This document shows positions 13,173-54,409 of a DNA stretch of 64,000 bases, one piece after another. This stretch comes from Enterobacter sp. 10-1 (lineage in GTDB: Bacteria > Pseudomonadota > Gammaproteobacteria > Enterobacterales > Enterobacteriaceae): contig NISF01000001.1 of assembly GCA_002270295.1 (NCBI GenBank), positions 1,116,001 through 1,180,000 of the forward strand, in the 5' to 3' direction. How positions within the stretch are numbered: the first letter of the stretch is position 1; each line of letters starts with the position of its first letter. The translations under genes and the position numbers were made by a program. Below the pieces are notes generated by a model. The model ran no database searches. It saw nothing but the letters and a program-made list of their open reading frames with translations, and was not told the origin of the DNA.

Positions 13173-14387
<1,215 letters not shown>

Positions 14388-15813: not shown

Positions 15814-17064
15814 ATGGAAAGCAAAGTAGTAGTTCCGGCGGAAGGTCAAAAAATCACCCTGCAAGATGGCAAGCTGAACGTCCCTAATAACCCGATTATC
15901 CCGTTTATCGAGGGTGATGGTATCGGTGTTGACGTGACCCCAGCGATGCTGAAAGTGGTGGATGCCGCCGTTGAGAAAGCCTATAAAGGCGAGCGTAAAA
16001 TTTCCTGGATGGAAGTTTACACCGGCGAAAAATCGACCCAGGTTTATGGCCAGGACGTCTGGCTGCCTGCCGAAACTCTTGATCTGATTCGTGATTATCG
16101 TGTTGCTATCAAAGGCCCTCTGACGACGCCAGTTGGCGGCGGTATTCGTTCTCTGAACGTTGCCCTGCGCCAGGAGCTGGATCTTTACGTCTGCCTGCGT
16201 CCGGTGCGCTACTACCAGGGTACACCGAGCCCGGTTAAACATCCTGAGCTGACCGATATGGTTATCTTCCGTGAAAACTCAGAAGATATCTATGCGGGCA
16301 TCGAATGGAAAGCTGACTCCGCTGAAGCCGAGAAAGTTATCAAATTCCTGCGTGATGAGATGGGCGTGAAGAAAATTCGCTTCCCGGAACATTGCGGCAT
16401 CGGCATTAAGCCGTGCTCCGAAGAAGGCACCAAACGCCTGGTTCGTGCTGCTATCGAATATGTCATTACCAATGACCGTGATTCGCTGACGCTGGTACAC
16501 AAAGGCAACATCATGAAGTTCACCGAAGGCGCCTTTAAAGACTGGGGCTACGAGCTGATTCGCGAAGAATTCGGCGGCGAACTGATTGACGGCGGCCCGT
16601 GGCAGAAGGTCAAAAACCCGAACACCGGTAAAGAGATCATCATCAAAGACGTTATCGCTGACGCCTTCCTGCAGCAGATCCTGCTGCGTCCGGCCGAGTA
16701 TGACGTTATTGCCTGTATGAACCTGAACGGCGACTACATCTCCGACGCCCTGGCGGCGCAGGTCGGCGGCATCGGTATTGCTCCGGGCGCTAACATCGGT
16801 GACGAGTGCGCGCTGTTCGAAGCGACTCACGGTACTGCACCGAAATATGCCGGCCAGGACAAAGTGAACCCAGGTTCCATTATCCTGTCCGCTGAGATGA
16901 TGCTGCGCCACCTGCAGTGGTTCGAAGCCGCAGACCTGATCGTTAAAGGCACCGAAGGCGCTATCGCCGCTAAGACCGTGACCTATGACTTTGAACGTCT
17001 GATGGAAGGCGCTAAGCTGCTGAAATGTAGCGAGTTTGGCGACGCGATTATCGCGAACATGTAA
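15814..17064 (+). CDS. icd: Isocitrate dehydrogenase (NADP+)
   Basis: 416 residues, full length; oxidatively decarboxylates isocitrate to 2-oxoglutarate in the TCA cycle. Visible are the N terminus [16 protein letters not shown], the phosphorylatable Ser loop in [16 protein letters not shown], the metal-binding Asps in [14 protein letters not shown]-type sequence and the NADP site around [17 protein letters not shown] good ribosome site (GGAGAGG) precedes the ATG. The last 164 bp are phage-supplied: two integrations at this site each carried a synonymous copy of the 3' end, so the enzyme stays whole. Confidence 0.98.
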
Positions 17065-24382: not shown

Positions 24383-24624
24383 GCTTCATACCTCTCGTCT
24401 ATGCGATGCCCAAAGAATTTCACTCAGGAAGCGCATTGTACATTGGAGTAAGTATGAGCATATGTGATTACCGTCAACTTAGTTTCCTAAAATTCATTCC
24501 CCAAAACGAAGATTTAAATTTGCTAAATCAACAAGTTAAAAAATGAAGTTTAAGGTAAAAAACATTCAATAAACTGGTAAAAAAACAATAAAATCAATTG
24601 GTTAAATATTTATGGTGTAGATAT

Positions 24625-25045
24625 TGCTGCGCCACCTGCAGTGGTTCGAAGCCGCAGACCTGATCGTTAAAGGCACTGAAGGCGCTATCGCCGCTAAGAC
24701 CGTGACCTATGACTTTGAACGTCTGATGGAAGGCGCTAAACTGCTGAAATGTAGCGAGTTTGGCGACGCGATTATCGCGAACATGTAATCAGCGATCGCT
24801 GATTAATGACAGAAGGGAGCCTGGTGGCTCCCTTTTTTACGATCGTTCAAAATCTTTCCCCAAAACTTTCCCCAAAACTGGCTTAAAATCATACTGCTTT
24901 TTGACCTACAACGAGCCAGTCTTTACCCCGGTCATCGTTGTATTTATCCGTCATTTTTTTCGATTTGTGGCCCAATAACTTCTGAGTATCTAAGCCTTGC
25001 TCCCGGTATAGCCGTTCTGAAAGAGATCTCTGTTCGTGGAAGGTT
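24625..25045. repeat. Direct repeat copy 2: icd 3' end plus integrase tail (att)
   Basis: 421 bp almost identical to 16901-17334. It forms the right end of element A and the left end of element B. The icd part (24625-24788) is a non-translated 3' fragment with no start. Confidence 0.9.
24815..24838 (+). terminator. Phage-supplied icd terminator (copy 2)
   Basis: Same GGGAGCC-TGGT-GGCTCCC hairpin and T-run as at 17091. Confidence 0.85.
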
Positions 25046-25188
25046 GGGGCGCTTCCTTCATCCCATGCAAGACAACTTTTGTCCCGAGCTTTTTTAAATG
25101 TAGAAGTCAGAGTTTTCGTGGATACCTGATCACCTCGGTTAGCCTGAGAGGTGGTATGTCTGAAATGGAGCAGATATTTACTAACCAC
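24889..25188 (-). pseudogene. Phage integrase, C-terminal fragment (element B)
   Basis: 99 codons of a lambda-type tyrosine recombinase. The conserved box HEQRSLSERLYREQG holds the HxxR pair, LLGHKS the second His, and DKYNDDRG the nucleophilic Tyr. The N-terminal DNA-binding and most of the catalytic domain are missing: upstream sequence is unrelated. icd-adjacent integrase transcribed toward icd is the P21/e14 arrangement. Confidence 0.88.
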
Positions 25189-30710: not shown

Positions 30711-30791
30711 CCGCCATTAGCTCAGCCAGGCAAGAGCATTGCTTTGTGACAGGAAGTAGGGGCCGGGGTTCGAGGCCCCGATGGCGGACCA
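30711..30791 (+). tRNA. tRNA-like gene, anticodon GTG (His), degenerate
   Basis: Acceptor stem CCGCCAT/ATGGCGG, D stem GCTC/GAGC and T stem CGGGG/CCCCG are perfect, with encoded CCA. The anticodon arm TTGCT-TTGTGAC-AGGAA has one mismatch and the variable loop is long (8 nt), so total length is 81. A tRNA between Q and the lysis genes is normal for lambdoid phages. Identity His is only from the loop and could be wrong. Confidence 0.5.
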
Positions 30792-31917: not shown

Positions 31918-32106
31918 ATGAACACGCATCACGTGACGACCGCCACCTCCTATGGCGTGGCCATCGGTTCTTTTGTCACCGGGCTGCTGAATTACTTCAC
32001 TCCGGAAGAGTGGAGTGCTGTCGGTGTACTGGGCGGAATTATTGTGGCGGTAGTGATATCAGTGATTAACGCTCATTTCCGCAATCTTGACAGCAGGGCT
32101 TACTGA
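31918..32106 (+). CDS. Phage holin (class II)
   Basis: 62 residues with two hydrophobic segments (about 8-27 and 38-53) separated by FTPEEWSAVG, a motif shared with P21-type holins. It times cell lysis by releasing or activating the endolysin. It directly precedes the endolysin gene and looks intact. Confidence 0.75.
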   Translation: MNTHHVTTATSYGVAIGSFVTGLLNYFTPEEWSAVGVLGGIIVAVVISVINAHFRNLDSRAY

Positions 32107-32164
32107 GAGCATCTGGCCCGGCAGCAGAAAGACGCGCTACCACCAGAACAGGGCCGGGGACAGG

Positions 32165-32701
32165 ATGATGGCAAGAGCCTCTAAGGGTCATATCGGCGTT
32201 GCCGTCGTCGCCTGCTCGGTGACGTTGATTATCAATATTGTGTTGTCACACGGCACACTGCGGACCAACCGGGAAGGGCTGGAGCTGATCGGCAACGCTG
32301 AAGGCTGCCGCCGTGACCCGTACACCTGCCCGGCAGGCATCATTACCGACGGTATCGGGAACATGCACAACGTGAAGCCGGGCGCCCCGAAGACCGACCA
32401 GCAAATCGCCCGGGACTGGGAAAAGAACATCGGTGCTGCTAAATGGTGCGTAAATGAGTATGTCGACGGCAAATCGCTGACGGATGACACCTTCTCGGCA
32501 GTGATGTCCATCACATTCAATGTGGGATGCCCGACGATGCGCCGTTCGATGCTGTTTGCGCTGCTGAGCAAAGGTCAGGTGATGCAGGCCTGTAATTAGT
32601 TCACCCGCTGGATTTACGGTGGTGGTGTGGTGTTACCCGGTCTGGTGGAACGCCGTGGCAAAGAGAAAACGCTGTGCCTGAAGGGGCTAAGGAATGAATA
32701 A
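32165..32701 (+). pseudogene. SAR endolysin (GH24 lysozyme), amber-interrupted
   Basis: N-terminal signal-anchor (HIGVAVVACSVTLIINIVL) followed by the lysozyme catalytic Glu region EGLELIGNAEGCRRDPYTCP with the downstream Asp/Thr. At 32597-32599 a TAG interrupts ACN*FTRWIYGGG, where relatives have Glu (GAG). The frame continues cleanly to 32701 and ends inside the Rz start, so a single G-to-T change explains it. The product lacks the last 34 residues. Confidence 0.85.
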
Positions 32702-33272
32702 ATATCTTATTGCCGCGCTCGCCGCTGCCGTTCTTTCACTGGGCTGGGTAGTTGACCACTACCACGGCAAGGCAGTCGGCTGGCGTGCCATGGCACACTG
32801 GGCACAGAAAGCCGTTAACAGTCTGGCTGCCACCATCACCGATATGCAGGTACGCCAGGAACAACTGGCACAGCTCGACCGAAAACACACACAGGAATTA
32901 GCTGATGCGTATCACGATATCAATGTTTTGCAGCGCGATGTTGACGTTGGCCGTCAGCAGTTGCAGCTCCACGCCACCTGTCCAGCCCTGCCAGCGGGTA
33001 CCCGTTGTGGGGCGGCAGGAGATAACCAGAGTCTGGAACGCACCCTGATTATGATCGCTCACTGGATGCGTCAGGGGCAGCGGGTGACGTTTACCGAATA
33101 TGCCAGCCAGTGGACTGAGGCACAGAAACACAGGAAAGACGGTAACCAGTCAACGCCTGAGATGGCGGAGGCCTGGCCTTTTCGTGGGAAACGCTGTATC
33201 AGCCCCGGCGGCTCCGATTACTTTGCGCAAGGAGTCCGGGGGGGGAACGTGTCGACGATGAGACGGAAATAA
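32694..33272 (+). CDS. Rz i-spanin, C terminus replaced
   Basis: Inner-membrane spanin: N-terminal anchor MNKYLIAALAAAVLSLGWVV and a long periplasmic helix up to about residue 100. After about residue 115 the sequence no longer resembles Rz and appears fused to unrelated phage DNA, so the C-terminal segment that binds Rz1 is probably lost. The start overlaps the endolysin end. Contains the Rz1 gene in the +1 frame. Confidence 0.7.
   Translation: MNKYLIAALAAAVLSLGWVVDHYHGKAVGWRAMAHWAQKAVNSLAATITDMQVRQEQLAQLDRKHTQELADAYHDINVLQRDVDVGRQQLQLHATCPALPAGTRCGAAGDNQSLERTLIMIAHWMRQGQRVTFTEYASQWTEAQKHRKDGNQSTPEMAEAWPFRGKRCISPGGSDYFAQGVRGGNVSTMRRK
32905..33048 (+). CDS. Rz1 outer-membrane spanin lipoprotein (embedded in Rz)
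   Basis: 47 residues in a different frame inside Rz: MRITISMFCSAMLTLAVSSC, a signal peptide with lipobox LAVSSC, then a Pro-rich periplasmic stub (SSTPPVQPCQRVPV). Nested Rz1 is a hallmark of lambdoid lysis cassettes. Too short for usual ORF thresholds. It is intact. Confidence 0.85.
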   Translation: MRITISMFCSAMLTLAVSSCSSTPPVQPCQRVPVVGRQEITRVWNAP

Positions 33273-34467: not shown

Positions 34468-35403
34468 ATGAATATTGAACTGCGCCAACTTCGCCATTTC
34501 GTTGCGCTCGTTGAATTCCGTAACTTTACAACGGCAGCGCAGGCAATGAAGATCTCGCAACCTGCTTTTAGTCGAAGTATTCAGTCGTTGGAACAAACGG
34601 TTGGTGCACGACTCATCAACCGTCAGAATCCACTTGAGCCCACCAAAAAAGGCCTGCTGGTGCTGGAACATGCCCGCCAGCTTTTACAGCACAGTCAGGA
34701 TCTCCTTAACGATATTGCCGCATTTAATGAAAAAGACGACGGTGAAATTCGTTTTGGTCTTGGGCCTGCTCCCGCAGCCTGGTTATTACCGCAGGTGATG
34801 GGGGCGTTCTCCCGCGATTATCCGCGCGTACGTTTGCTATTTCGCGTGGATAACTGGCAGGCGTTGGGCGAAAAATTACAGGCGGGGGAGTTCGGATTTA
34901 TTGTTGCCGATACGCGTAATTTTGAATTTGATACACGCTTTCAGGTTCAACCGCTGATCCGCCACCGCTGGGGTTTTTGCTGTCGCCAGCAACATCCACT
35001 GGCACACCTGGACGAAATAACTGTTGAACAACTGTTCAGTTACCCGCTGGCCGCCACGATCCGCCCGCCGAACTTGCACCGGGCGTTGGTACAGCTTAGT
35101 GGGCGTCAGGATATTCGTACCAGTATTGAATGTGAAAATGGCTACAGTCTGCTTGAGGTGGTTCGTCATTCGGATGCGATTGGCACCACCAATTACTCAC
35201 AGGATGCCGCGCAACAAGGGCTGAATATGCTGAAAATCGCCGGGCTGGATGACGATACCGACGAGTTTTATACCCACTATGGCATTGTTTCGCTGGCGGG
35301 TGCGCGCTTGTCGTGGCTGACGCGCACCCTGATGGAAACGTTTATGCACGTGGATGAAGCCATTCACGGTCAGCGTGAGACGGCTACAACGGCGTTACTC
35401 TAA
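34468..35403 (+). CDS. LysR-family regulator of the transport cluster
   Basis: 311 residues. The N-terminal HTH (residues 3-60: LRQLRHFVALVEFRNFTTAA, then QPAFSRSIQSLEQTVGARL) is followed by the two-lobed effector domain. The start MNIELRQLRH was preferred to an ATG five codons earlier. It converges on the DUF6250 gene (20-bp overlap of ends) and is the only regulator in the cluster, so it probably controls the divergent promoters at 42107-42345. In layout it recalls SftR of Pseudomonas sulfate-ester clusters. Confidence 0.88.
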   Translation: MNIELRQLRHFVALVEFRNFTTAAQAMKISQPAFSRSIQSLEQTVGARLINRQNPLEPTKKGLLVLEHARQLLQHSQDLLNDIAAFNEKDDGEIRFGLGPAPAAWLLPQVMGAFSRDYPRVRLLFRVDNWQALGEKLQAGEFGFIVADTRNFEFDTRFQVQPLIRHRWGFCCRQQHPLAHLDEITVEQLFSYPLAATIRPPNLHRALVQLSGRQDIRTSIECENGYSLLEVVRHSDAIGTTNYSQDAAQQGLNMLKIAGLDDDTDEFYTHYGIVSLAGARLSWLTRTLMETFMHVDEAIHGQRETATTALL

Positions 35404-36046
35404 AATTGCGGATCACCTGCCGCGACCACACAGTTCGAAATGCAAAATATCCGGGCGCGGGCGGCGAGGTGTAGGCCGCGCTGAACCACAATTCACCGTC
35501 TACCCACAGGCGGGTGGCGTTGTTCGCCACTTCAATCACCATATGATAAGCGTGGTGCGGGCGTAGCAACCGGCTGGCATCGGTGAATTCCTCAAGCAAC
35601 TGGCGCTTACCGCGACCGTCGTAACGGCGAAAACGGCTGGTGGTATTCCAGTTGCCGCCAATACCGGCGTAATACAGCTCCAGCGCGTCGTACTGGCTTA
35701 ACTCGCCGTCGCGAGTAAATAGGTCCGGGTTGGCCGGATCGCGCGCCGCCCAGAACAGGTTAACGTCAGACAGTCGGTCATGAGGGCGGTTTTGCATCAT
35801 GACTTCGCGGGTAAAACTAATGCGATAGGTGCCGGACAGGGGCTTGTTCAGCCACATAGTTAACCCGGCGGCGCTGTCTATCTCCAGGGTATTGGCATCC
35901 ACGAATATCGCTGTATCCTGCGGTTTCTCCTGCTCTACGCGCCATCGTTGTGGCTGGCCTTGCTCATCTCGTCCCCAACTCAACACATATTGGTGCTGGG
36001 GGCCGTGACATCGTTCGATCCCTGCACTGTAACTTAAATCCGTCAT
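35384..36046 (-). CDS. DUF6250 (beta-sandwich, polysaccharide-associated) protein
   Basis: 220 residues, no signal peptide. It matches the DUF6250 family through PHDRLSDVNLFWAARDPANP, YYAGIGGNWNTTSRFRRYDG and the C-terminal WVDGELWFSAAY ... GYFAFRTVWSRQ. The family has a concanavalin-like sandwich and is common in Bacteroidetes pectin/rhamnogalacturonan loci. Here it follows the lyase-like gene by 13 bp in one transcript. Lack of a signal peptide suggests cytoplasmic action or an unseen start. Confidence 0.8.
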   Translation of the reverse strand: MTDLSYSAGIERCHGPQHQYVLSWGRDEQGQPQRWRVEQEKPQDTAIFVDANTLEIDSAAGLTMWLNKPLSGTYRISFTREVMMQNRPHDRLSDVNLFWAARDPANPDLFTRDGELSQYDALELYYAGIGGNWNTTSRFRRYDGRGKRQLLEEFTDASRLLRPHHAYHMVIEVANNATRLWVDGELWFSAAYTSPPAPGYFAFRTVWSRQVIRNFRVTPL

Positions 36047-36059
36047 GGTTTTTCCTGCA

Positions 36060-38810
36060 TTATTTATCCGAAGGGGTGTTCAGCAGTGCCAGCAACGAGA
36101 GCGCTGTGAGTCCCCACTGCGCAACGGCGTTGGTGGCAAGATTGGTCTCACCGGTGCTGCCAGAACGTTTATCAATATTGGAGTCGATGGCGGCTTCCCG
36201 CACCGGGTACAGCACTTCTGGCGGTCGGATCAGGCGCTGCTGCTGATTGGGATGGGCAATGCCGCCTTCGCCGCTGTCAAATTCGCGCCAGGCACGTTTC
36301 GCCAGCGCATTATCGTGCTGGTACCAGGCGGCAAACGCGGTTAGACGGGCGTGGCCCTGTACCAGATTGAGTTTTTTCACCTCTTTGCCAACTGTCTTAC
36401 TCAATGCAGGCAGATCGTTGTACAGGCGACAGTAATCAAGCCATGCCTGGGTGAAGTCTTCATCCGGCAGCAGTTGCAGTAATTCACTGCAAATCTCCGC
36501 CAGCCCGAACACGGCGCTTAAGTGGGAGATAAATAACTGATCCACCGGGGCGGGCTTAAATTCGCCGCTGTCGGCGTTCATTTCGGCTAAGCCGGTGAAA
36601 AAGCCATGTGGCTGTGCGGCAATGGATCGCATGCTGGCGAGCAGTCGTTGGCGCATGGCGTCATCATTACGCCGTTCCCATGCCGTTAGCCACGCAGCGG
36701 CCACGGCGCTCCAGTCCGTGCCGAAATAGAGGCTGACAAAACGGGGATCTGCCGCGGGCTGCTGTCCGATTTTGCGCCCAGGCGACACGCTTTTTAGCGT
36801 CCGCACCCCTTCGATCTGCTCATCCATCAAATCGCCAATCCGCTCGTCAGCAGTGAGGTAAAAGAGAAAGCGGCGGTTTGCCACGGTGGAGATACGCAGT
36901 TGCTTGGCACTGTCGCCCCAGTGGCGTACGTTATGGCGTGAACCGAGCGGTGCAAAACGCCCCAGATGATAAACATCCACTTCCCCGGTGTGGCGCGTCA
37001 TCGCCTCCGCCATGCGGAACACATCGGCGCGCCCGCTATGTAAAAAGTAGTACCACAGCCACAGATCGGTGCTCAGCTCTGAGTTATCCCACGCATAACC
37101 GCCAACATCGTAACGCCAGACGTGGCGATCGCCATCGTAGGTGTGCATTACGTCGCCAAAATCCCAGAAACCGTACCATTTACGCTGTTCCACTTCCCGG
37201 CGATAAAAGTCGAAATACCAGCCCAACTGCTCGCGCAGCGGCTGATGCTGCTTGCCGAGAACGCTGGCCGGTGCCCATACCGGGCCAAACACACCTGCCC
37301 GCCACAGGTCTTCCCCCTGCGCCACCAGCAGCGGCGGTTGTTGCATACGTTGCGCGATTGCCACCAGATGGCTGTCATCAGGCGTGCGTGGCAGTAAGTC
37401 GATAAACAACTCACTGGTGCGCGCTACGCCGTGCGGCGTATCGAAACCGGGTTCATAATCTTCGTAGGTGATATCCAGCGCATCGCGCTGGGCGGTAAAG
37501 CTGCCGAGCCCCATTTCATCATGCCAGCTACGCATATCCATCGCTTCCGCCCACGGTGACCACAGCCACAGCGTCACCGTGGCGAGATCGGTGTGCGCGC
37601 GGGCAATCTCGAGGCTGGCCGGGTAACTCTGCCAGAAGTTGCGCAGACCAAACGCTACGCCGCCCTGCGCTGAGCCAAGATAGCCGACGCCACCGGCACG
37701 CGTGCCGGTGGCCGACAGCACCCAGCCCTGATTTTCGCCGGTGCGTTTGTGGATATGGTAACCATCGGGGTGGTGCTGCGTCAGGCGATAGCTGCCAAAT
37801 GCCGGGATCGTTGCCAGCCGTTCGGCAACAATTGGCGTAAAGTCACTCAGGGCAGGCGTTGCAGCACCTTGCAATTGTGCTGCGATCACCGCGCTGCCGG
37901 GATCTCGACGCAGGCCGGTCAGACCACGTATCGCTTCGCGAAAGATCCCGCCCTGGTCGGAAACAAAACGCACGTGCCGATCGTGAAGCGCCGCCTGCTG
38001 CGGTGTATCAAATGCCAGTCCCACACCGCTGATTGCCCGCTGTGGCCGCTCGTTGTCGTAGAGAAGGGTATGCATCACGCGCACCGTTCCGGATCCTGCA
38101 TACCAGTACAGCCGTACCACAAACTGAATCACGGCATCGCTGCCTTTGCGGTGCGTTCCCCGTAGCGTCAGCACCGCACGTTGTGGGCCATTTTGTTCCA
38201 GCACGACTGAATCTGCATGACCGGCCAGCGTGTCGACCGTCTGCGTTTCATCGGCTTCGTCACTGGTGCGAGTGCGTAACACCAGTCGTCCATTGGTCAG
38301 CGCCAGGCGTTGATCCTGCCAAATCTCTTTCACCAACGTGTCGCCGCGGCGGGCGATCACTGCCCGCACAGTGCCGGTATCAATGATCCAGCCACTGTCG
38401 GTTTCTGTGGCGATGCACACCCCGACGGGTTTCTCCGGCACAGGTACCACGCTCAGCTGTGCGCCACATGGAACCTCTCCCCCCAGCGCGTGAGCCGACC
38501 ATTTAACGGAGCCGTCCGGCCACCAGGCCAGCGGCCAGCTTTGCAGATCGCGCTCGCCGCCTTGCTCCTGCAGTACAAACGCACTCTGCGCTTGTACTGC
38601 GCCCTGTGTCCACGGAACGCCCCAGGTCACGCCGCTAAATGACGCTGGCTGTTGTTGCTCCAGCCAGTGTAGTTGCACCTTCACTGGTATTGCACTGGCC
38701 TCATTTTTCCGGGGGGCGGCAAGGCCCGAGCCTGACCATAGCGGCAGTGCCAGGCTGAGCAGGGCGCTGTCACGCAGGAAGTGACGGCGTGAGTACGGAA
38801 AATAGCTCAT
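36060..38810 (-). CDS. Tat-exported exo-rhamnogalacturonan lyase-like protein (PcRGLX/YetA family)
   Basis: 916 residues. A twin-arginine signal is clear: SRRHFLRDSALLSLALPLWS then an Ala cleavage region. An N-terminal beta-rich part is followed by an alpha/alpha-barrel part with WYYFLHSGRADVFRMAEAMT and YHLGRFAPLGSRHNVRHWGD, typical of PcRGLX-like proteins (exo-acting rhamnogalacturonan lyases of fungi and bacteria). It would work in the periplasm on saccharide that the receptor lets in. The ATG is 5 bp after the receptor stop (receptor, lyase, DUF6250 in order). Substrate not proven. Confidence 0.78.
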   Translation of the reverse strand: MSYFPYSRRHFLRDSALLSLALPLWSGSGLAAPRKNEASAIPVKVQLHWLEQQQPASFSGVTWGVPWTQGAVQAQSAFVLQEQGGERDLQSWPLAWWPDGSVKWSAHALGGEVPCGAQLSVVPVPEKPVGVCIATETDSGWIIDTGTVRAVIARRGDTLVKEIWQDQRLALTNGRLVLRTRTSDEADETQTVDTLAGHADSVVLEQNGPQRAVLTLRGTHRKGSDAVIQFVVRLYWYAGSGTVRVMHTLLYDNERPQRAISGVGLAFDTPQQAALHDRHVRFVSDQGGIFREAIRGLTGLRRDPGSAVIAAQLQGAATPALSDFTPIVAERLATIPAFGSYRLTQHHPDGYHIHKRTGENQGWVLSATGTRAGGVGYLGSAQGGVAFGLRNFWQSYPASLEIARAHTDLATVTLWLWSPWAEAMDMRSWHDEMGLGSFTAQRDALDITYEDYEPGFDTPHGVARTSELFIDLLPRTPDDSHLVAIAQRMQQPPLLVAQGEDLWRAGVFGPVWAPASVLGKQHQPLREQLGWYFDFYRREVEQRKWYGFWDFGDVMHTYDGDRHVWRYDVGGYAWDNSELSTDLWLWYYFLHSGRADVFRMAEAMTRHTGEVDVYHLGRFAPLGSRHNVRHWGDSAKQLRISTVANRRFLFYLTADERIGDLMDEQIEGVRTLKSVSPGRKIGQQPAADPRFVSLYFGTDWSAVAAAWLTAWERRNDDAMRQRLLASMRSIAAQPHGFFTGLAEMNADSGEFKPAPVDQLFISHLSAVFGLAEICSELLQLLPDEDFTQAWLDYCRLYNDLPALSKTVGKEVKKLNLVQGHARLTAFAAWYQHDNALAKRAWREFDSGEGGIAHPNQQQRLIRPPEVLYPVREAAIDSNIDKRSGSTGETNLATNAVAQWGLTALSLLALLNTPSDK

Positions 38811-38815
38811 AGTCC

Positions 38816-41080
38816 TTACCCTTTGAAGTCCCAACCCACGGTGACGCCGAACAGACGTTCGTCCGCAAGTTGCCCGTAGGCGGAGCCGTAATCACCGGCT
38901 TTGATTACCCGGTAGTAAGATTTATTCAACGCGTTTTGCAACCACAGTGAGACGCGCCAGGTGTGGTTATCCTGCTTACCGCTTAACCCGGTGGAGAGGT
39001 TAAGTACGCCGTAAGACGGAATGCGCGTGTAGTCGGAGTTATCGACCGTGCCGTAGGTCCAGCTGCGCCAGGAGTATTGACCTGAAACAAACACCTGCAG
39101 GTTATCAAAGGCGTTCCACTCGTAACGGGCGCGGGCGTTCCAGCTCAGTCGTGGCGAGCTAAAGACGCGTTTACCGGTTAGATCGCAGGTGGCGGGTGCA
39201 TTTGCCTGCAACGAGATTTCAGCCGGGCATTTGGCATTTTTGAAATCCAGGTAGCTGGCATCAAGCAGGGTGCCATTCAGGGCGAGGCTCAGGCCTTCTG
39301 TCGGGTAAAGCGCCAGTTGTGACTCAATGCCACGGCTGCGGTATTTACCCGCGTTAATCAGATAACTGCTGAGCGTCTCTTCATCATAGGCGGTGGTCTG
39401 GAAGTCACGCACTTCACTCCAGAACAACGCGGTATTCCATTCAACTTTACGTTGCAGCCAGTGGGTTTTGACCCCCAGTTCAACCGAACGGGTTTTCTCC
39501 GGATCGATATACAGCGAATCCGTACCGGCTTTTGATGCTGCGCCGGAGGAGATATTCAGACCTCCGGATTTCTCGGCATAGGCCAGCGTCAGGTAAGGGG
39601 TGATATTGGGTGTCGCATACCAGTTGAGGCTGGCGGTAGCAGCAGGCAGGTGGTTGGTTTGCGACAGCTTGCCGGAATCAAAATCGTTTTTGTTGATCCG
39701 GCGGAAAGAGCCAGTTTTCTTCTCGTAAGTGCCGCGCAGGCCGGTAATCAGGTCCCACTGCTCGTTCAGGTGCCATGTGCTGTTGGCGTAGAGCGAGACG
39801 GCATTGTCATTCAGCTTGCCAAAACGCTGTACATATTTACCGGTGTTGCTGGTATTGCCGTACCAGGTTGTGACTCTGGAACCACTGTAATAGTGGTCAT
39901 GGGCGAAGGTATCGAGGTTTTCGCCCCAGTAATCGATACCGACGGTGTAGTCGACGACGCCGCCTTTAGGCGAATCGAACCAGAAACGCTGTTCCCAGAT
40001 GCGATCGTGCACATCTGCGCCACTGTTGGCATACAGCGGGATACTCAGGCCATCGGCACTTTGCGGCAGAAAGCGGAAATAACGCCAGGATGAGAGTGAA
40101 TGCAGCGTGTAACCGCTATCCAGGCGCAGATCCGCCGCCAGTGAGGTGCCGCCTTGGGTGACGCGGGTTTTGGACTCATCGTCCAGCGCCACCTTGCGGC
40201 CTTTCACCACCGTTGCGCCGACCTGGCTTGCCCGATTAAGGAACGTATCGTTTCCGTTCACCGCATGGGTATCGACCAGCGACATCACCGGGAAGCTTGT
40301 GGCTTCGCTGTAGTCGCCAATAAAGCGCACATCGAGGTTATCTGCCGGTTGCCACAATAACTGGCCCCGTACACCATTGCTACGGCTGCCGCCGAGCTTA
40401 TTGCCGGTTTGCACATTATCGACGTAACCGCCTTTTTCAGTGTGGGAGAGATTGATGCGCCCGGCGAGGGTATCGGTCAGCGCGCCGGAGGCCATCAGCT
40501 TTGACTGCACATAACCCCGCTGGCCAACGGATTGCTCAAGCGAATATTCCGGGGTGAAGGTCGGTTTGCGGCTGCGGATATCAATGGCACCCGCGCTGGT
40601 ATTAAAGCCATACAGCGTGCCCTGCGGGCCTTTTAAGACATTGACGCTGTCTATATCCAGCAGATCGTTGGCCAGCATTCCCGGCCGCGACAGGCGCACG
40701 CCGTCGAGAAATTGACCGACGCTACTGGGCATACCGATATTGATTTCGCTGCCTCCGCCATCGCCAATGCCGCGAATGGTGACCCGGGTGTCGAGTGCGT
40801 CGGTGGCGGCAATATCCACGCCGCTGATGGCCTGGGAAAGATCTTCAAACCGATACAGTCGATCCTGCTCCAGCGTTTTGCCCTCCACACGTGAAGAGAG
40901 GGTGGTTTGCTGGCGTACCTGTGGCCGCGAAGCACTGACTTTCACTTTTTTCAGTTGCACTGTGGTGTCAGTTGCACTGTTGCTGGTGGTTGTCCCGGTG
41001 GTATCAGTCGCCTGCGCGGTCGATAATCCCGCCAGAATACTGGCGGTAAGCAGTGAATAATGCCATTTGCTTCTCATCAT
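38816..41080 (-). CDS. TonB-dependent outer-membrane receptor
   Basis: 754 residues. Signal peptide (cleavage after about STAQA), Thr/Ser-rich linker, TonB-box-like KKVKVSA, plug domain (LSQAISGVDIAA ... RVTIRGIGDGG ... VNVLKGPQGTLYGFNTSAGA) and a 22-strand barrel ending in Phe-Lys-Gly. The plug is of the non-siderophore 'iron complex receptor-like' type seen with sulfate-ester and saccharide systems. It lies 15 bp after the binding-protein gene, and its private TonB-ExbBD is divergent from it. No Fur box is seen, which argues against iron. Confidence 0.85.
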   Translation of the reverse strand: MMRSKWHYSLLTASILAGLSTAQATDTTGTTTSNSATDTTVQLKKVKVSASRPQVRQQTTLSSRVEGKTLEQDRLYRFEDLSQAISGVDIAATDALDTRVTIRGIGDGGGSEINIGMPSSVGQFLDGVRLSRPGMLANDLLDIDSVNVLKGPQGTLYGFNTSAGAIDIRSRKPTFTPEYSLEQSVGQRGYVQSKLMASGALTDTLAGRINLSHTEKGGYVDNVQTGNKLGGSRSNGVRGQLLWQPADNLDVRFIGDYSEATSFPVMSLVDTHAVNGNDTFLNRASQVGATVVKGRKVALDDESKTRVTQGGTSLAADLRLDSGYTLHSLSSWRYFRFLPQSADGLSIPLYANSGADVHDRIWEQRFWFDSPKGGVVDYTVGIDYWGENLDTFAHDHYYSGSRVTTWYGNTSNTGKYVQRFGKLNDNAVSLYANSTWHLNEQWDLITGLRGTYEKKTGSFRRINKNDFDSGKLSQTNHLPAATASLNWYATPNITPYLTLAYAEKSGGLNISSGAASKAGTDSLYIDPEKTRSVELGVKTHWLQRKVEWNTALFWSEVRDFQTTAYDEETLSSYLINAGKYRSRGIESQLALYPTEGLSLALNGTLLDASYLDFKNAKCPAEISLQANAPATCDLTGKRVFSSPRLSWNARARYEWNAFDNLQVFVSGQYSWRSWTYGTVDNSDYTRIPSYGVLNLSTGLSGKQDNHTWRVSLWLQNALNKSYYRVIKAGDYGSAYGQLADERLFGVTVGWDFKG

Positions 41081-41095
41081 TATTATTCCCGTCTT

Positions 41096-42106
41096 TTAAT
41101 TTGTTTTTAAAAACGAACTGTCCAGCCATTGATTCACATCGACAGGCTGACGAATTAGTTTCGTCTGCCGGGCAATATCGATCGAGTTGGTTAATTGCGA
41201 TACAAATTGCGCATCCAGGTCAGGAGATAACCGCTGGGATAATGGCGGTAAACCATCCCATTCTTCGCGCAACAGGGTTTGTGGGTAGCCAGATTGATTA
41301 GCCAACAACTGAATAAACGCGTCTTTATTTTTATCTTCGCTGGCCCACGCCGCTGCTTTACGTTGCACTTCAACGATCCTCTGCAAAATATCGCTATTGG
41401 CACGAGCGAACTGCCCCTCAACGAGGATCAGACCACTTAATTGACCGGCTCCATTTAGATCGCGAGTCGACAGTGGAATATCCGCCACGCCCTTATCCCG
41501 CAGCGCTAGTGTGTTATTCCCGCCCCAGGTAGCGTCAATTTGTTTCGCGGCCAGCGCTGCGCTGGCCGCGGCAAAGTCGAGGTTGATGATTTTCACCTCG
41601 CTGGCTTTCAGACCCTGCGACTCCAGCGCAGAAACGAACGATAATTCTGCTGCGGTACCGCGAAATAAACCGATGCGTTTGCCTTTTAAATCCTCCAGCG
41701 TATGAATGTTGGTGCCTTTTGCCACCGCCAGGTAGTGGTTAATACCACGAGCGGCAACGCCAATGACTTTACTGTCCAGTCCACGCGAACGCCCGACAAT
41801 GCTGGCGAGATCGCCAAGGTAGGCCATATCAATTTGATGGTTGGCGAAACCTTCGTTAATCACCGGCCCGGCACCTTTAATAAACAGCCAGCGCACCGAA
41901 ATACCACTGCGACCAAACTCCTGCTCCAGCAATTTCTGGCTGTAAATCACATCCACCAGCCCGCCGCCTGCGGGTTTATCTCCGGCACCAATATCCGATA
42001 CCGCAATACGAATCTCATTGGCTGTCGCACCAGCCAGTGTCGACCAGGCCAGGCTTAAACTGACCAAGGCATTCATCAGCCATTTCGGAGAAAGAACACA
42101 TTTCAC
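41096..42106 (-). CDS. ABC transporter periplasmic binding protein, SsuA/TauA/AtsR type
   Basis: 336 residues with a signal peptide (cleavage near ATANE). The two-lobed NMT1/SsuA-like fold is recognisable from NEIRIAVSDIGAG, YLGDLASIVG, LEDLKGKRIGLFRGTAAELS and DATWGGNNTLALRDKG. Such proteins feed sulfonate, taurine, sulfate-ester or nitrate importers. It is the first gene of the minus-strand unit, divergent from tonB; its permease and ATPase partners are at the end of the plus-strand unit. Confidence 0.85.
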   Translation of the reverse strand: MKCVLSPKWLMNALVSLSLAWSTLAGATANEIRIAVSDIGAGDKPAGGGLVDVIYSQKLLEQEFGRSGISVRWLFIKGAGPVINEGFANHQIDMAYLGDLASIVGRSRGLDSKVIGVAARGINHYLAVAKGTNIHTLEDLKGKRIGLFRGTAAELSFVSALESQGLKASEVKIINLDFAAASAALAAKQIDATWGGNNTLALRDKGVADIPLSTRDLNGAGQLSGLILVEGQFARANSDILQRIVEVQRKAAAWASEDKNKDAFIQLLANQSGYPQTLLREEWDGLPPLSQRLSPDLDAQFVSQLTNSIDIARQTKLIRQPVDVNQWLDSSFLKTN

Positions 42107-42345
42107 GCTGCCACCCGCTATTTATTGATTATCCAGGCGGCAAGATTTAAAGGATGGTTATTCTGCTGGCTAATATAAAAATCGGCATTGTATTTTTGGA
42201 TATTCGCTAAATCAGGCATAGCGCGAAAGTAAGCGGTCATGCATAGAATGGAAATAAACTATGCGAAATACGCATTAGCCATGTTGGCAATTTGCTTTTA
42301 AATAGCAGAGACCTAAGAAAATATTAATGCCAGGAGTTGTAGAGA
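42107..42345. promoter_or_regulatory. Divergent promoter region with dyad
   Basis: 239 bp between the binding-protein gene and tonB. GCATAG-N12-CTATGC (42241-42264) is a perfect 6-bp dyad, and a third GCATAG lies at 42216. Such a set of half-sites suits LysR regulation. A ribosome site (AGGAG) precedes tonB. No Fur box. Confidence 0.5.
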
Positions 42346-43113
42346 ATGACGCAGATTGTCTGTGCCGGTGAACCTGGAATTACCGGGAATGCATTATTGA
42401 CGCCGAAAAAAACACGCCGGGTTTTTACCCCGGTAGACCAGTTGCTGGCGCTGGCGGTTGCTGTGGGATTACACGCGGCAATTTTGCCGTGGCTGCTCAC
42501 TGCGCCACCCGCGGTGCCGCCGGTCAGCGTACCGCAGGCCTTACCGATGGAGATTGAATTTGCTGGGCCACAGCCGGTTGCCGTTGAGGCGCCACCACCG
42601 GAGGTGGTGTCTGAACCGGTTGTGGAACCGCCGCCTGCACCGCCAGAGGTGGATGAAAATGCGCTCGCCGCCGCGAAACCGAAAGTGCGGCCTGAGACGA
42701 AAGCGAAACCTAAGCCGGTGAAGAAGAGGGCCGTGCCGAAACCGAAACCACAACCGGCGGCAGCGGTGGCGAATAAACCGCTACATGCGGCGGTGGCACC
42801 GGAAAACCCGGCACCGCCGGTAACGTCGGTCACGCCGCCGCTGGCGAACGCCAATTACTTGCACAACCCTGCGCCTGAGTACCCCGAAAGTGCCATTAAC
42901 CGGGGGCTGGAGGGAACCGTATTGCTCAAAGTGCAGGTCAGCCCGGCAGGGAAAGTAACGGAAATCCAGATTTACAAATCCAGCGGTGTAAGCGCACTCG
43001 ATGAGGCGGCGCTTGGCACTGTCAGGCGCTGGTCGTTTGTTCCGGCTAAACGGGGCAGTGAGGCCGTGAGCGGCCAGGTCATTGTTCCGATCGATTTTTC
43101 GCTTAATTCATGA
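42346..43113 (+). CDS. TonB-like energy transducer (cluster-specific)
   Basis: 255 residues. A cytoplasmic N terminus is followed by a transmembrane helix at about 32-50 containing the functional His (VGLHAAI), then a long Pro/Lys-rich periplasmic spacer (EPPPAPPEV, KAKPKPVKKRAVPKPKPQPA) and a C-terminal TonB fold (APEYPESAINRGLEG, VSPAGKVTEIQIYKSSG). It would carry proton-motive energy from ExbBD to the receptor. It is additional to the chromosomal tonB and stands first in a five-gene plus-strand operon. Confidence 0.92.
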   Translation: MTQIVCAGEPGITGNALLTPKKTRRVFTPVDQLLALAVAVGLHAAILPWLLTAPPAVPPVSVPQALPMEIEFAGPQPVAVEAPPPEVVSEPVVEPPPAPPEVDENALAAAKPKVRPETKAKPKPVKKRAVPKPKPQPAAAVANKPLHAAVAPENPAPPVTSVTPPLANANYLHNPAPEYPESAINRGLEGTVLLKVQVSPAGKVTEIQIYKSSGVSALDEAALGTVRRWSFVPAKRGSEAVSGQVIVPIDFSLNS

Positions 43114-43123
43114 GGTACTTTTG

Positions 43124-43804
43124 ATGACTCCCGAACATTTTAACCTAACTTCACCGGAAGGCGCGGTCATTGCCGTACTGGTGCTGTTTTCACTGTTCAC
43201 GTGGACGGTTGGCGCGCTGAAACTGGTGCAGTATTTGCGTTTGCAGCGTCGTAATCAGCAGTTTCGCCGCCTGTTCTGGCAGCAGGAAGATCTGCGTCAG
43301 GCACTGGCACAAAACTCAACGCCCGGTGCGCTGGCAAACCTGGCGCAGGCGGCACTGCATGCACCGGAGCGCCTGAAAGGGCGTAATACGCTGGAAGTGC
43401 AGTTGCCGGATCGCGTTGAGCGTGCGTTGCAACAGCAGATCCAGCGTGAGCGGCGTACGCTAGAATCCGGGCTGGCACTGCTTGCGAGTATCGGTACCAC
43501 TTCACCGTTTATTGGTCTGTTCGGTACGGTATGGGGAATTATGGCCGCCCTACGGAATATTGGTCTTGCGGGTTCCGCCAGCCTGGATACTGTCGCCGGG
43601 CCCATTGGCAGCGCACTGGTGGCAACCGGCATTGGTATTGCCGTCGCGGTTCCGGCGGTGCTGATTTACAACTACTTCCAAAGGCGTCTGAAACTGGCGG
43701 TCGCGGACATGGATGACTTCGCGCATGACGTCTACAGCCTGATGCAGGCGCAGGGTTTTCAGGGGGCCGCCTTTACGGTCGACGGGTTGAGGGGGGCGGC
43801 ATAA
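43124..43804 (+). CDS. exbB: ExbB-like proton channel subunit
   Basis: 226 residues of the MotA/TolQ/ExbB family with three transmembrane helices (about 17-37, 125-147, 160-185). The conserved TSPFIGLFGTVWGIM and ALVATGIGIAVAVPAVLIYN segments are present. It pairs with ExbD to power TonB. The start MTPEHFNLTS follows GAGGTAC; 14 earlier codons in frame overlap tonB and are ignored. The stop is adjacent to the exbD start. Confidence 0.93.
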   Translation: MTPEHFNLTSPEGAVIAVLVLFSLFTWTVGALKLVQYLRLQRRNQQFRRLFWQQEDLRQALAQNSTPGALANLAQAALHAPERLKGRNTLEVQLPDRVERALQQQIQRERRTLESGLALLASIGTTSPFIGLFGTVWGIMAALRNIGLAGSASLDTVAGPIGSALVATGIGIAVAVPAVLIYNYFQRRLKLAVADMDDFAHDVYSLMQAQGFQGAAFTVDGLRGAA

Positions 43805-44206
43805 ATGGCATTCTCTTCGAACAATCACGACGATATTATGAGCGAAATGAATATCACGCCGCTGGTGGATGTGATGCTGGTGCTGCTGGTGGTGTTTATT
43901 GTTACCGCTCCGATGCTGACCAACGCGATTCCTGTCAACCTGCCTAAAACCTCTGCCGTGGCCCCGGCGGATCGACCCGATCCGTTGGTGGTTAGCGTCG
44001 ATGGCACGCAGCAGCTGTTTTTGAATAAACAGGCGATGGCGCGTGAACAACTACTGAGCCAGTTGACGGAGGCGCAGCGCGCCAACAGCGACGTAGTGGT
44101 GCAGGTGCAGGCGGATAAAGATGCCAGCTACGGCACAGTGGCAGCGTTGCTGGCGGATATTGAGCAGTCCGGCATTCACCGCCTGGCACTGTTAACGCAG
44201 AAATAG
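43805..44206 (+). CDS. exbD: ExbD-like proton channel subunit
   Basis: 133 residues of the ExbD/TolR family. A single N-terminal transmembrane helix carries the essential Asp in NITPLVDVMLVLLVVFIV. The periplasmic domain ends in YGTVAALLADIEQSGIHRLA. It starts immediately after the exbB stop (TAA-ATG) and is followed 3 bp later by the permease gene, so translation is tightly coupled. Confidence 0.93.
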   Translation: MAFSSNNHDDIMSEMNITPLVDVMLVLLVVFIVTAPMLTNAIPVNLPKTSAVAPADRPDPLVVSVDGTQQLFLNKQAMAREQLLSQLTEAQRANSDVVVQVQADKDASYGTVAALLADIEQSGIHRLALLTQK

Positions 44207-44209
44207 CCG

Positions 44210-45751
44210 ATGCTCAGTGCTAAGCAGCGTTTACTTCAGCAGGGCAGCGGCTGGCTGTTACCTGTCGGGCTATTAGTCTGCTGGTGGCAGGCCAGCCTTC
44301 ATGGCTGGATGTCCGAGCAGATTTTACCCTCCCCGGCGCTGGTGCTGGAGAGCGCCCGTGACTTTATTGGCGAGGATCTGCTGCGCGAGTTGCCCATCAG
44401 TCTGTGGCGGTTGGCCGTGGGGCTGGCGGGCGGCATTGCGCAGGGTTTTTTGCTCGGCATGGTCTTTGGTTTGAGCCAGACGGTTCATCGCCTGTTGATG
44501 CCGCTCTTTACCGTGCTGGTGCAGATCCCGACGCTGGCGTGGATCCCGCTGTTAATGCTGATGCTTGGTATCGGTGAAGCATTGAAGCTCACTGTGCTGA
44601 TCAAAGCGGTGACCGTGCCAGTGGCGCTTTATACCTGTGCGGGCGTGCAGCAGATCCCCCCGGGACTGAAGGAGGTGGCGCGCAGCTTGCGCCTTTCACC
44701 ATGGGTATATGGGCAGCGGCTGGTATTACCCTCGCTGTTGCCCTTCCTGATGACCGGCATCCGGCTGGCGTTTTCCCAGGGTTGGGTGTCGCTAATTGCG
44801 GTTGAGTTACTCGCCTCCAGTGAAGGGCTGGGTTATTTGCTGGTGCAGAGCCGGCAGTTGTTTATGCTCGATCTGGTGTATGTCTGCGTGGTGGTTATCG
44901 GTGTGCTGGGGTTTGCTGGCGAGGGGTTGCTGCTATCACTCAGCCGACGCTGGATCTCCTGGCCTGCTCCGGTCACTGGGGCGGGAAAGGTAACGTCTCC
45001 CGTCACGCGCGATCTTTATGGCTGGCTGCTGCCGCTGACATTAATCATGATCTGGCAACTGGCTTGTGCCGTTGGCTGGCTGAACAGCGCCTTTTTCGCT
45101 TCACCGCTGACGGTAGGGCAAACGCTCTGCTCCGGGTTGTTGCAGGGCATACTGGCCAGCGAACTGGCTGCCAGCCTGTGGCGTATGCTGCTGGGGTTTG
45201 CGGTGGGAGCTGTTGCCGGGTTACTGCTGGGCGGGTTTACAGGCAGCAGCGTGTGGGCTGACCGTGTGTTCACACCGCTATTTTCTGCGCTACGCAGCGT
45301 GGCTATTTTTGCCTGGCTGCCGCTGATCACTGCATGGTTTGGCCTCGGGGAGAGTGCGCGGGTGGCTTTTATTTCGCTGGCGAGCTTTTTCCCTGTGCTG
45401 TTAGCAACGCACCAGGGGATCGCCCAGTTGCCGCCAACGTTACAGGAAGTCGCCACGGCTTTGCGCCTGTCGCCATTATCCCGCTTGCGTCACCTGGTGC
45501 TGCCAGGAATGTTGCCACACCTGTTTACCGGGCTGCGTCTCGGCATGATGCATGCGTGGGTGGGGACCATTGGCGCGGAGTATTTCGTCTCATCGGGCGA
45601 AGGGCTGGGCAGCATGATGATGCGCGCCCAGCAGCTGCTGGCGGCGGATCGCATCCTTGCGGGGATTGTGTTGATTGCGCTGGTGGCCGCTTTTATTTCC
45701 TGGGCCATCGGTCGGATTGAGCGCCGCCTGACTGCCTGGCGCTACGACTGA
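44210..45751 (+). CDS. Fused double ABC permease (SsuC/TauC type)
   Basis: 513 residues made of two tandem SsuC-like permease domains (about 1-250 and 265-513). Each has its own N-terminal PSP-x-V segment, six or so helices and an ATPase-contact loop: GLKEVARSLRLSPW in the first half, TLQEVATALRLSPL in the second. Most importers of this family use a homodimer of a ~260-residue protein; here one chain supplies both halves. It is followed 13 bp later by the ATPase. Confidence 0.88.
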   Translation: MLSAKQRLLQQGSGWLLPVGLLVCWWQASLHGWMSEQILPSPALVLESARDFIGEDLLRELPISLWRLAVGLAGGIAQGFLLGMVFGLSQTVHRLLMPLFTVLVQIPTLAWIPLLMLMLGIGEALKLTVLIKAVTVPVALYTCAGVQQIPPGLKEVARSLRLSPWVYGQRLVLPSLLPFLMTGIRLAFSQGWVSLIAVELLASSEGLGYLLVQSRQLFMLDLVYVCVVVIGVLGFAGEGLLLSLSRRWISWPAPVTGAGKVTSPVTRDLYGWLLPLTLIMIWQLACAVGWLNSAFFASPLTVGQTLCSGLLQGILASELAASLWRMLLGFAVGAVAGLLLGGFTGSSVWADRVFTPLFSALRSVAIFAWLPLITAWFGLGESARVAFISLASFFPVLLATHQGIAQLPPTLQEVATALRLSPLSRLRHLVLPGMLPHLFTGLRLGMMHAWVGTIGAEYFVSSGEGLGSMMMRAQQLLAADRILAGIVLIALVAAFISWAIGRIERRLTAWRYD

Positions 45752-45764
45752 CAGTGAGAACCTT

Positions 45765-46499
45765 ATGACCTTACAATTTCGCCATATTCATAAAACGTTT
45801 ACTGTTAACCAGCAGCCGATGGCCGCGCTGGAGGACATTGACCTGACTCTGGCACCGGGTGAACTGGTGGCGATTATTGGTGCCAGCGGCTGTGGTAAAT
45901 CGACGCTACTGAGGCTTGCCGCCGGACTGGAGCGTGCGGAGCTGGGAACAATTACCGTCAATGATCAGCCATTACAGGGGATACCGTCACAGGTAAGTCT
46001 GGTGTTTCAGGAGGCGCGGTTGTTCCCATGGCTGACTGTGGCGCAGAACATTGAACTGGGCATGGAGCAACTTTCGCTGACGCCGGAGTATAAAGCGAAA
46101 CAGGTGGAATATTATCTGTCCATGATGGGATTAAACGGGTTTGGTCGTGTATTTCCCCATCAGTTATCCGGCGGGATGGCACAGCGCGTGGCGATTGCTC
46201 GTGGTCTTGCCACTCAGCCGGAAATATTGCTGCTGGATGAGCCTTTCGGGGCGCTGGATGCGTTAAAGCGACAGCAGTTGCAGGATGTACTGGTGACCAT
46301 TCGTCAGCATACACCGTTGAGTATTTTGCTGGTGACACACGATGTGGAAGAAGCTCTATACCTTGCCGATCGTGTGGTGGTTATGTCTCCGAGACCAGGG
46401 CGAATCCGAGCCACATTGCCTATTACGTTGCCCTGGCCTCGAAGCCGCACCGACAGTGCATTGCAATCACAGCGTCAGCAGTTGTGCGATTTATTATAA
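45765..46499 (+). CDS. ABC transporter ATPase (SsuB/TauB type)
   Basis: 244 residues with Walker A GASGCGKST, Q-loop VFQEARLFPWLTV, signature LSGGMAQRVAIARGLA, Walker B ILLLDEPFGALD and H-loop VTHDVEEALYLADRV. The VFQEARLFPW Q-loop is characteristic of sulfonate/taurine/nitrate importers. It closes the five-gene operon tonB-exbB-exbD-permease-ATPase. Confidence 0.92.
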   Translation: MTLQFRHIHKTFTVNQQPMAALEDIDLTLAPGELVAIIGASGCGKSTLLRLAAGLERAELGTITVNDQPLQGIPSQVSLVFQEARLFPWLTVAQNIELGMEQLSLTPEYKAKQVEYYLSMMGLNGFGRVFPHQLSGGMAQRVAIARGLATQPEILLLDEPFGALDALKRQQLQDVLVTIRQHTPLSILLVTHDVEEALYLADRVVVMSPRPGRIRATLPITLPWPRSRTDSALQSQRQQLCDLL

Positions 46500-51074: not shown

Positions 51075-51288
51075 AAGGTATAGTCAAGAGATGGCGACGT
51101 CTTCACTGATGTATGATTAGACGATGGTCGGGTGCTTGATGCATTAATCATCAGAGATACTTCTGCAAAACTAATTTTATTAATATATATCAATACGTTA
51201 AAGTTACGATGGAATGCAATAACTTAACGCGTTGCAACCCACTAAAACGCATTATAAACATAATGTTATGTGACTTTCAGAGTAATAC

Positions 51289-51452
51289 TGCTGCGCCACC
51301 TGCAGTGGTTCGAAGCCGCAGACCTGATCGTTAAAGGCACCGAAGGCGCTATCGCCGCTAAGACCGTGACCTATGACTTTGAACGTCTGATGGAAGGCGC
51401 TAAACTGCTGAAATGTAGCGAGTTTGGCGACGCGATTATCGCGAACATGTAA
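51289..51452. repeat. Direct repeat copy 3: original host icd 3' end
   Basis: The same 164 bp as at 16901 and 24625, but followed by different DNA and by a different terminator. It is therefore the displaced host end of icd, left without a start after integration (an icdC-like relic). Confidence 0.9.
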
Positions 51453-51475
51453 TCCAGCCTCTGGGTTAGACAAAA

Positions 51476-51509: not shown

Positions 51510-51805
51510 GCTGTTCATTTTTGACTTTTATTAGTTTCAATTATCCGGTTTTTTTCTTACTTAAAATCATCTTAAAGCGACTTACCTCGCGGGTAAAAGC
51601 GTAAAACAATTTCGCATGCTTCCTCTATTAACCCGGTCAGGCATCTCTGCTCAGTTTACGCTTTATTCAAAATTAAGTTGGCTCACTATATCCACGATAG
51701 TGAAAAGGCTATTTGACCCTGGGCCCTGACCGGAAATTCCTGATTATGAGCGAGGCCAGGTCACAACCTCAGATTTAACTGATTCACCCGACCGGTATTA
51801 CGGCG
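51510..51805. other. Backbone spacer, no gene seen
   Basis: The host side of the icd site. No frame of note. Confidence 0.4.
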
Positions 51806-51898
51806 TTACCAGGCGGTAACCCGTGCACTATTGTTGATGAGGGAACGCATCAGCGAAATAATGACGATCAATGTAAAGGTTTGTATGATCCTGAGCAC
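51806..51898 (-). CDS. Possible 30-aa hydrophobic small protein
   Basis: GTG start seven bases after a strong TGAGGAGAAA ribosome site, encoding MLRIIQTFTLIVIISLMRSL and ten more residues. One transmembrane helix. The ribosome site is the main support; no family known to me. Confidence 0.4.
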   Translation of the reverse strand: MLRIIQTFTLIVIISLMRSLINNSARVTAW

Positions 51899-52164
51899 AG
51901 TTTCTCCTCAATTTACCCGCACCCAGGGACGCTGTTTCAGGCGTAACGCCGAAGTTAAATGAAAAGCCAGATAATTTCAATACGTTATTACTATTCCCAT
52001 TGCTATGATTTATAAGCATATTAGTGACTTTTTTTTTGCCTGCTTATTATAGGTGTCGTTTTGCGATTTTACTTATTAGCGCACTTACGTTTATTTACAT
52101 ATAAAGCGCAAAGCCATCAAATAATGTAGAAAAAAAGGAGGAGCTATTTCACTGTGTGTACAGT

Positions 52165-52183
52165 GATAATCATTCTCATTATC
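52165..52183. promoter_or_regulatory. Fur box
   Basis: GATAATCATTCTCATTATC matches the 19-bp Fur consensus (GATAATGATAATCATTATC) at 17 of 19 positions or close to it. It is 46 bp upstream of the receptor start, so the receptor is iron-repressed. Confidence 0.9.
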
Positions 52184-52228
52184 ATAAGCATTTACTTACA
52201 AATATTAACTCTTCTGGGGATTATCTAA

Positions 52229-54403: not shown

Positions 54404-54409
54404 TTAATG

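Follow-up and report, generated by a model that had tools for sequence, protein, structure and literature searches.

What does Enterobacter sp. 10-1 import through a ten-gene cassette that is carried in a prophage remnant and joins a lyase-type enzyme to its own uptake machinery? The cassette lies in a stretch of 64,000 nucleotides (contig NISF01000001.1, positions 1,116,001 to 1,180,000; here the window), and pairs PL26, an enzyme family directed at rhamnogalacturonan-I (RG-I), with an uptake system consisting of a TonB-dependent receptor (TBDR) and an ATP-binding cassette (ABC) transporter that includes a substrate-binding protein (SBP). We propose, with a probability of about 0.6, that it is a self-powered system for the uptake and trimming of RG-I oligosaccharides. 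RG-I as the substrate is well supported by homology and context, and the weak link of the proposal is that an SsuA-type transporter would have to carry a disaccharide.

Organization and conservation of the cassette

An initial annotation, made from the letters of the window, had described ten intact genes, and this description holds: all ten frames are open within positions 34,468–46,499, and Pfam and NCBIfam agree with the families proposed (Table 1). The SBP, TBDR, PL26 and DUF6250 genes form a minus-strand unit and the TonB, ExbB, ExbD, permease and ATPase genes a plus-strand unit, with 239 bp between them; the distal end of the minus unit is flanked by a LysR gene that converges on the DUF6250 gene and overlaps it by 20 bp. 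The TonB gene is one of five TonB_C matches genome-wide. LysR, TBDR and SsuA-type ABC genes occur together here as they do in sulfate-ester utilization loci; no sulfatase, sulfate-ester dioxygenase or arylsulfotransferase/sulfotransferase was found among the ten genes with Pfam and NCBIfam.

Transcription diverges from the region between the two units, where an alignment of 15 sequences reveals a conserved operator-like block. The pattern of this block has a single site with zero or one mismatch in each of six genomes, in every case within the cassette promoter, and five sites with three mismatches, the same number as for a reversed control pattern. Because the pattern was derived from these loci, the only informative part of this result is that no further near-perfect sites occur, and the LysR regulator looks to be a local one.

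The receptor, energizer, transporter and lyase had been taken as one unit, a view that independent occurrence of the receptor and ABC genes would have contradicted, and the distribution of the genes favors linkage. Among 295 genomes of the family, PL26 is present in six (including this one), the TBDR is found at E 1e-150 or better in five of those six and in no other genome, being in pieces in the sixth (G167), and SBP orthologues (69–100% identical) occur in exactly the same six. Scanning named genomes yielded 22 loci, and 15 enterobacterial loci besides that of the window (L007–L019, L026 and L027) were compared. The complete set of ten can be detected, in unchanged order, at 13 of these 15, so that the unit stays together in other enterobacteria, and a LysR gene with a product 72–78% identical occupies the same position in all 15. 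Viewed by tblastn, ten of the 13 cassettes are unbroken and three (L011, L026 and L027) visibly broken. The cassette is decaying in L026 (Candidatus Symbiopectobacterium) and in L011, with the TBDR in pieces in both, the SBP and PL26 also in pieces in the former, and a stop within the DUF6250 stretch in the latter. The TBDR match in L008 and L009 has one TGA, perhaps upstream of the true start, and in Pectobacterium aroidearum (L016) an IS110-type transposase gene (14742–15791 of that locus) adjoins the cassette.

The combination of genes, described at the outset as new, is not peculiar to this genome: eight named Pectobacterium loci carry the cassette with none of the ten genes broken when viewed by tblastn. 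L010 possibly duplicates a named Pectobacterium lineage. Dickeya dadantii 3937 apparently has the same cassette, judging from the names and numbers of features ABF-0019115 to 0019125, which appear as predicted host-interaction factors in a 2014 machine-learning candidate list; the names (two hypotheticals, sftP, atsR, ExbB, ExbD and astB) are the basis of our match, and the part of the source available gives no substrate (PMC4079955). In the same part, the features of P. carotovorum WPP14 that are paired with the D. dadantii ones are numbered far apart (PMC4079955). The literature searched, largely outside subscription journals, reports no substrate for the cassette.

Relatives of the lyase, DUF6250 and the receptor

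The PL26 protein matches PF19501, PF21345 and PF21346 above gathering score, corresponding to the RIFT barrel, beta sandwich and alpha/alpha toroid of PcRGLX, and its best PDB match is PcRGLX itself (5xq3, E 7e-203, residues 54–883). The toroid segment is strongly conserved. In one aligned row of the match 72 of 103 residues are identical, and an alignment of 15 PL26 proteins (12 from Proteobacteria, one from Belliella and two from Paenibacillus) has 121 invariant columns. PcRGLX (5XQ3, 5XQG, 5XQJ, 5XQO) is an exo-rhamnogalacturonan lyase from Penicillium chrysogenum; the cassette protein shares its three-domain architecture and is similar over the full length, but is bacterial, has a twin-arginine motif (SRRHFLRD) at its N-terminus, and is encoded next to a receptor and a transporter.

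The predicted structure of the DUF6250 protein is nearest to YesU and has a ConA-like jelly-roll fold. PDB sequence searches gave no convincing match, and a profile search did not return 1oq1 up to E 10. Thirteen enterobacterial DUF6250 sequences examined have no signal peptide, and the protein is perhaps carried by PL26 through the twin-arginine translocation (Tat) system. Among 398 genomes of the phylum, PL26 and DUF6250 are each present in seven, together in five and adjacent in four, and in Duganella (L020) they are fused as one protein.

The relatives of these two proteins mostly reside in RG-I or pectin loci. RG-I/pectin loci of Burkholderiales, Belliella and Alteromonas likewise contain PL26 and DUF6250, in several cases with a TBDR, and have PL4-, PL11- or acetylesterase-like neighbors: PL11 accompanies the pair in Belliella (L024) and PL4 in Paraburkholderia (L023, L025), and by eye the neighbors in L058–L060 are acetylesterase-, PL22-, GH28- or PL11-like. 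In G087, PL4 and KdgM porin genes are close to the cassette itself. The available text of one report describes growth on rhamnogalacturonan for an Alteromonas strain with a PL22-PL26-GH88 locus (PMC6972757). The yes/yet region of B. subtilis has PL26 with a YesU-like protein in place of DUF6250. TBDRs encoded beside PL26 in Burkholderiales (L020, L023, L025) share 43–45% identity with the cassette TBDR across most of the latter; the PDB sequence relatives of the cassette TBDR at E 0.001, the pesticin receptor and Fiu only, are uninformative on the ligand. Unlike the cassette, the RG-I/pectin loci read have no LysR-SsuABC-type half, except for an SsuABC/TauD-like operon beside L025, which also differs in having a FecR-like gene and an STN-type receptor. 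An acidic rhamnose-containing saccharide, one of the substrates suggested at the outset, is therefore the probable cargo, as the lyase matches PcRGLX and its relatives and those of DUF6250 mostly lie in RG-I or pectin loci.

We envisage that RG lyases encoded elsewhere would release acidic, often branched galacturonic acid-rhamnose oligosaccharides, and that the TBDR, powered by the cassette TonB-ExbB-ExbD, would bring pieces exceeding porin size across the outer membrane. In the periplasm PL26, exported by Tat and partnered by DUF6250 as a carbohydrate-binding protein, would act as an exo-lyase and release unsaturated galacturonosyl-rhamnose, and the SBP, fused permease and ATPase would carry this carboxylate disaccharide inward for cleavage by a cytosolic GH105-type enzyme; LysR may sense a product and act at the single conserved site of the divergent promoter. 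A GH105-type gene is present elsewhere in the genome, adjoining a GPH transporter gene (L042, 9025–11812). No cytosolic enzyme is encoded in the cluster, and its description as a closed system was overstated.

Transporter relatives and alternative functions

The ABC half has relatives of a different kind. The SBP has an SsuA-type binding-protein fold, and the ligands of its closest structural matches are sulfonates, taurine or small anions; scores against sulfonate-transporter models fall below curated cut-offs for the SBP (TIGR01728, 141 of 163.5 bits), the permease (SsuC PRK11365, 273 bits, cut-off 347) and the ATPase (SsuB PRK11247, 193 of 395 bits), the best NCBIfam model for the last among the matches listed being SaoA (227 of 360 bits). 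An enzymatic role of the DszB or Thi5 kind, known for this fold, was rejected because the SBP gene stands with permease and ATPase genes and its product has a hydrophobic N-terminus. Fifteen paralogues were found, and the sister cassettes of all six that were read carry an arylsulfotransferase where the present cassette has PL26 and DUF6250. In two of these sister cassettes (L039 in this genome and L044 in G087) the LysR, SBP, fused permease and ATPase are 37–54% identical to ours. L044, the single receptor-bearing one, also has TonB, ExbB and ExbD, and its TBDR is only distantly related to the cassette TBDR (25–34% over parts). The L044 cassette (G087:C1:1586000-1605900, 3665–15547) encodes two arylsulfotransferases, of which one apparently has a signal peptide, and is possibly a self-powered aryl-sulfate system. 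A comparable gene content, with LysR, TBDR and an SsuA-type ABC transporter in one locus, is found in the sulfate-ester system SftR-SftP-AtsRBC of Pseudomonas; the cassette differs in lacking a sulfatase or dioxygenase and in having its own TonB-ExbBD and PL26/DUF6250. From these comparisons it looks as though two modules have been joined, one for RG-I (TBDR-PL26-DUF6250) and one for uptake (LysR-SBP-TonB-ExbBD-permease-ATPase), the latter shared with arylsulfotransferase cassettes. Tentatively, we suggest that an SsuA-type importer was recruited from sulfate-ester uptake for an unsaturated acidic disaccharide, with DUF6250 exported by the Tat-borne lyase.

Several observations weigh against uptake of RG-I fragments. 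The ligands of the SBP relatives and the arylsulfotransferases of the sister cassettes have been noted, and no SsuA-group SBP is known to bind a sugar; there is none among the 50 structure matches listed for the SBP, which excludes nothing. Two loci from a single genus, L008 and L009, have the cassette without its ATPase gene, the other nine genes being present; G208 has, no more than about 20 kb away, a sister-cassette ATPase (53% identical) that the two cassettes might share. DUF6250 is related to YesU by fold only and was not found in B. subtilis, PL26 occurs without DUF6250 in two of seven genomes and DUF6250 without PL26 in two of seven, and PL26 in L061 has housekeeping neighbors with none of RG-I or pectin type. 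The GH105-type protein scores above the cut-off of the beta-galactosidase BglB model and may not cut the disaccharide, for which, given the adjoining GPH transporter gene, the ABC transporter may be redundant. Beside PL26 in Paraburkholderia sp. BCC1886 (L025) are genes for an NMT1-type SBP and a taurine-dioxygenase-like protein (14528–16571) and for SsuBC-like proteins, by chance or through a link to sulfur, and in L008 oxygenase-like (without an NCBIfam match) and MetN-like genes were seen nearby by eye. In the nine loci whose flanks were read by eye, a sulfur function argued from such neighbors (TauD/SsuABC-like in L025, MetN-like in L008 and L009, a second Ssu-like ABC transporter in L007) was set aside because they vary between loci.

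The foremost alternative, which we consider unlikely, is sulfur scavenging, in which the cargo of the receptor and SsuABC-type transporter would be a sulfate ester or a sulfonate, possibly an acidic glycoside conjugate from which the lyase strips the uronate-rhamnose part in the periplasm. The resemblance of the SBP, permease, ATPase, LysR, ExbB and ExbD to proteins of the arylsulfotransferase-linked cassettes, the nearness of the SBP fold to SsuA, the MetN-like or Ssu-like transport genes within 20 kb in L007–L009, and a sister cassette about 18 kb away in G208 are all consistent with this, as is the name sftP borne by the apparent Dickeya receptor in the available part of the candidate list (PMC4079955). 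It is opposed by the lack of a sulfur-releasing enzyme among the ten genes, by the resemblance of PL26/DUF6250 loci elsewhere to RG-I or pectin loci, and by the distance of the receptor from its sister-cassette counterpart. RG-I is not known to be sulfated. The sulfated substrate first suggested is not supported, the link to sulfur being that the ABC/LysR half resembles the arylsulfotransferase-linked cassette. A division of labor, in which the TBDR, PL26 and DUF6250 act on RG-I, the disaccharide enters by the GPH transporter, and the ABC transporter takes up an accompanying aromatic acid or small anion, seems somewhat less probable again: the adjacent GPH and GH105-type genes and the different evolutionary source of the ABC half would fit it, but the SBP gene is in one predicted operon with those for the TBDR and PL26 and accompanies them at every one of the 15 further enterobacterial loci (fragmented at one).

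It is very improbable that the cassette is a prophage passenger without function in its present host. Its location in a prophage remnant, the broken copies in three other loci and the lack of PL26 in all 19 other genomes of the genus searched could be read in this way, but the ten frames are intact and the operator-like block is conserved. Clean reading frames had been taken to imply selection, and constraint is indeed apparent from an NG86 comparison of the ten genes with those of the nearest relative, G087 (dN 0.14–0.40, dS 0.95–2.5); dS is near saturation, most of that divergence must predate the prophage, and the low dN/dS cannot be dated to after integration.

Prophage setting and significance

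The prophage setting proposed at the outset was borne out by an integrase fragment, holin, endolysin and Rz matches, and repeats of the icd 3' end. Three icd 3'-end copies, of 166–170 bp and 98.8–99.4% identical, are present, and attachment-site duplications flank an element with phage genes inside, as for prophage cargo at icd. Apparently two elements lie in tandem, the cassette being within the second, of about 26.7 kb; the first (about 17.1–24.6 kb) contains a umuC homologue and genes without a family match. GC content is 56.6% in the cassette and 42–46% in the surrounding element. A genome of the same genus (G310) is 94–96% identical to nearly all of window positions 1–17333, interrupted by about 5 kb of other DNA, followed by 3.3 kb of other DNA and then 87–93% identity to pieces of 51605–56708. 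From this comparison, and because PL26 is present in this genome alone among 20 from the genus, the cassette seems to have arrived recently by way of a prophage. Neither plasmids nor E. coli genomes gave a megablast match to the cassette, nor did E. coli to the right chromosomal flank; phage searches with the flanks gave short matches only, the best of one search lying in lysozyme genes and those listed in another being the icd 3' repeat in lambda-like records. ARAGORN calls a tRNA-His at 30711–30791 inside the remnant, possibly spurious or phage-borne.

Table 1. Features of the cassette and its surroundings (window coordinates).
Feature	Position	Strand	Remarks
LysR-type regulator, probably local	34468..35403	+	Pfam LysR_substrate and HTH_1
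DUF6250 protein with ConA-like jelly-roll fold and without signal peptide; probably binds carbohydrate as partner of the lyase	35384..36046	-	
PL26 (PcRGLX-like) exo-rhamnogalacturonan-lyase-type protein	36060..38834	-	likely ATG 38810; SRRHFLRD; PcRGLX_1st, 2nd, 3rd
TBDR	38816..41080	-	Plug and barrel domains; frame overlaps lyase frame
SsuA-type SBP	41096..42106	-	
Divergent promoter region, operator-like block 42252-42278	42107..42345		alignment of 15 sequences
TonB	42346..43113	+	TonB_C 3.4e-25
ExbB	43124..43804	+	MotA_ExbB 9e-35; likely ATG 43124, frame open from 43082
ExbD	43805..44206	+	PF02472 1e-28
Fused double SsuC-type permease	44210..45751	+	two BPD_transp_1 stretches
SsuB-type ATPase	45765..46499	+	ABC_tran
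icd, integration site	15814..17064	+	PRK07006 848 bits
icd 3'-end copy	16901-17066		
Left icd 3'-end repeat of cassette-bearing element	24621..24790		self-BLAST 98.8% to 51285-51454
Integrase C-terminal fragment	24889..25188	-	phrog_1 2e-11, phrog_216 1e-8
Holin-, endolysin- and Rz-like genes of prophage remnant	31918..33272	+	phrog_20, phrog_7, phrog_13
Right icd 3'-end repeat	51285..51454		self-BLAST

Soft-rot bacteria and other Enterobacterales associated with plants are usually described as using RG-I by way of porins and Rhi enzymes. If our proposal of RG-I uptake is correct, these bacteria would have, in a conserved cassette equipped with a periplasmic exo-lyase, an active, TonB-energized route for large branched fragments of pectin RG-I, and its transporter would be the first known sugar importer of the SsuA-type family. 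The cassette would also correct the 'sulfonate/sulfate ester' names given by homology, and its SBP, TBDR and DUF6250 are proteins with measurable ligands. It would represent two unrelated uptake modules that were combined and mobilized by a prophage.

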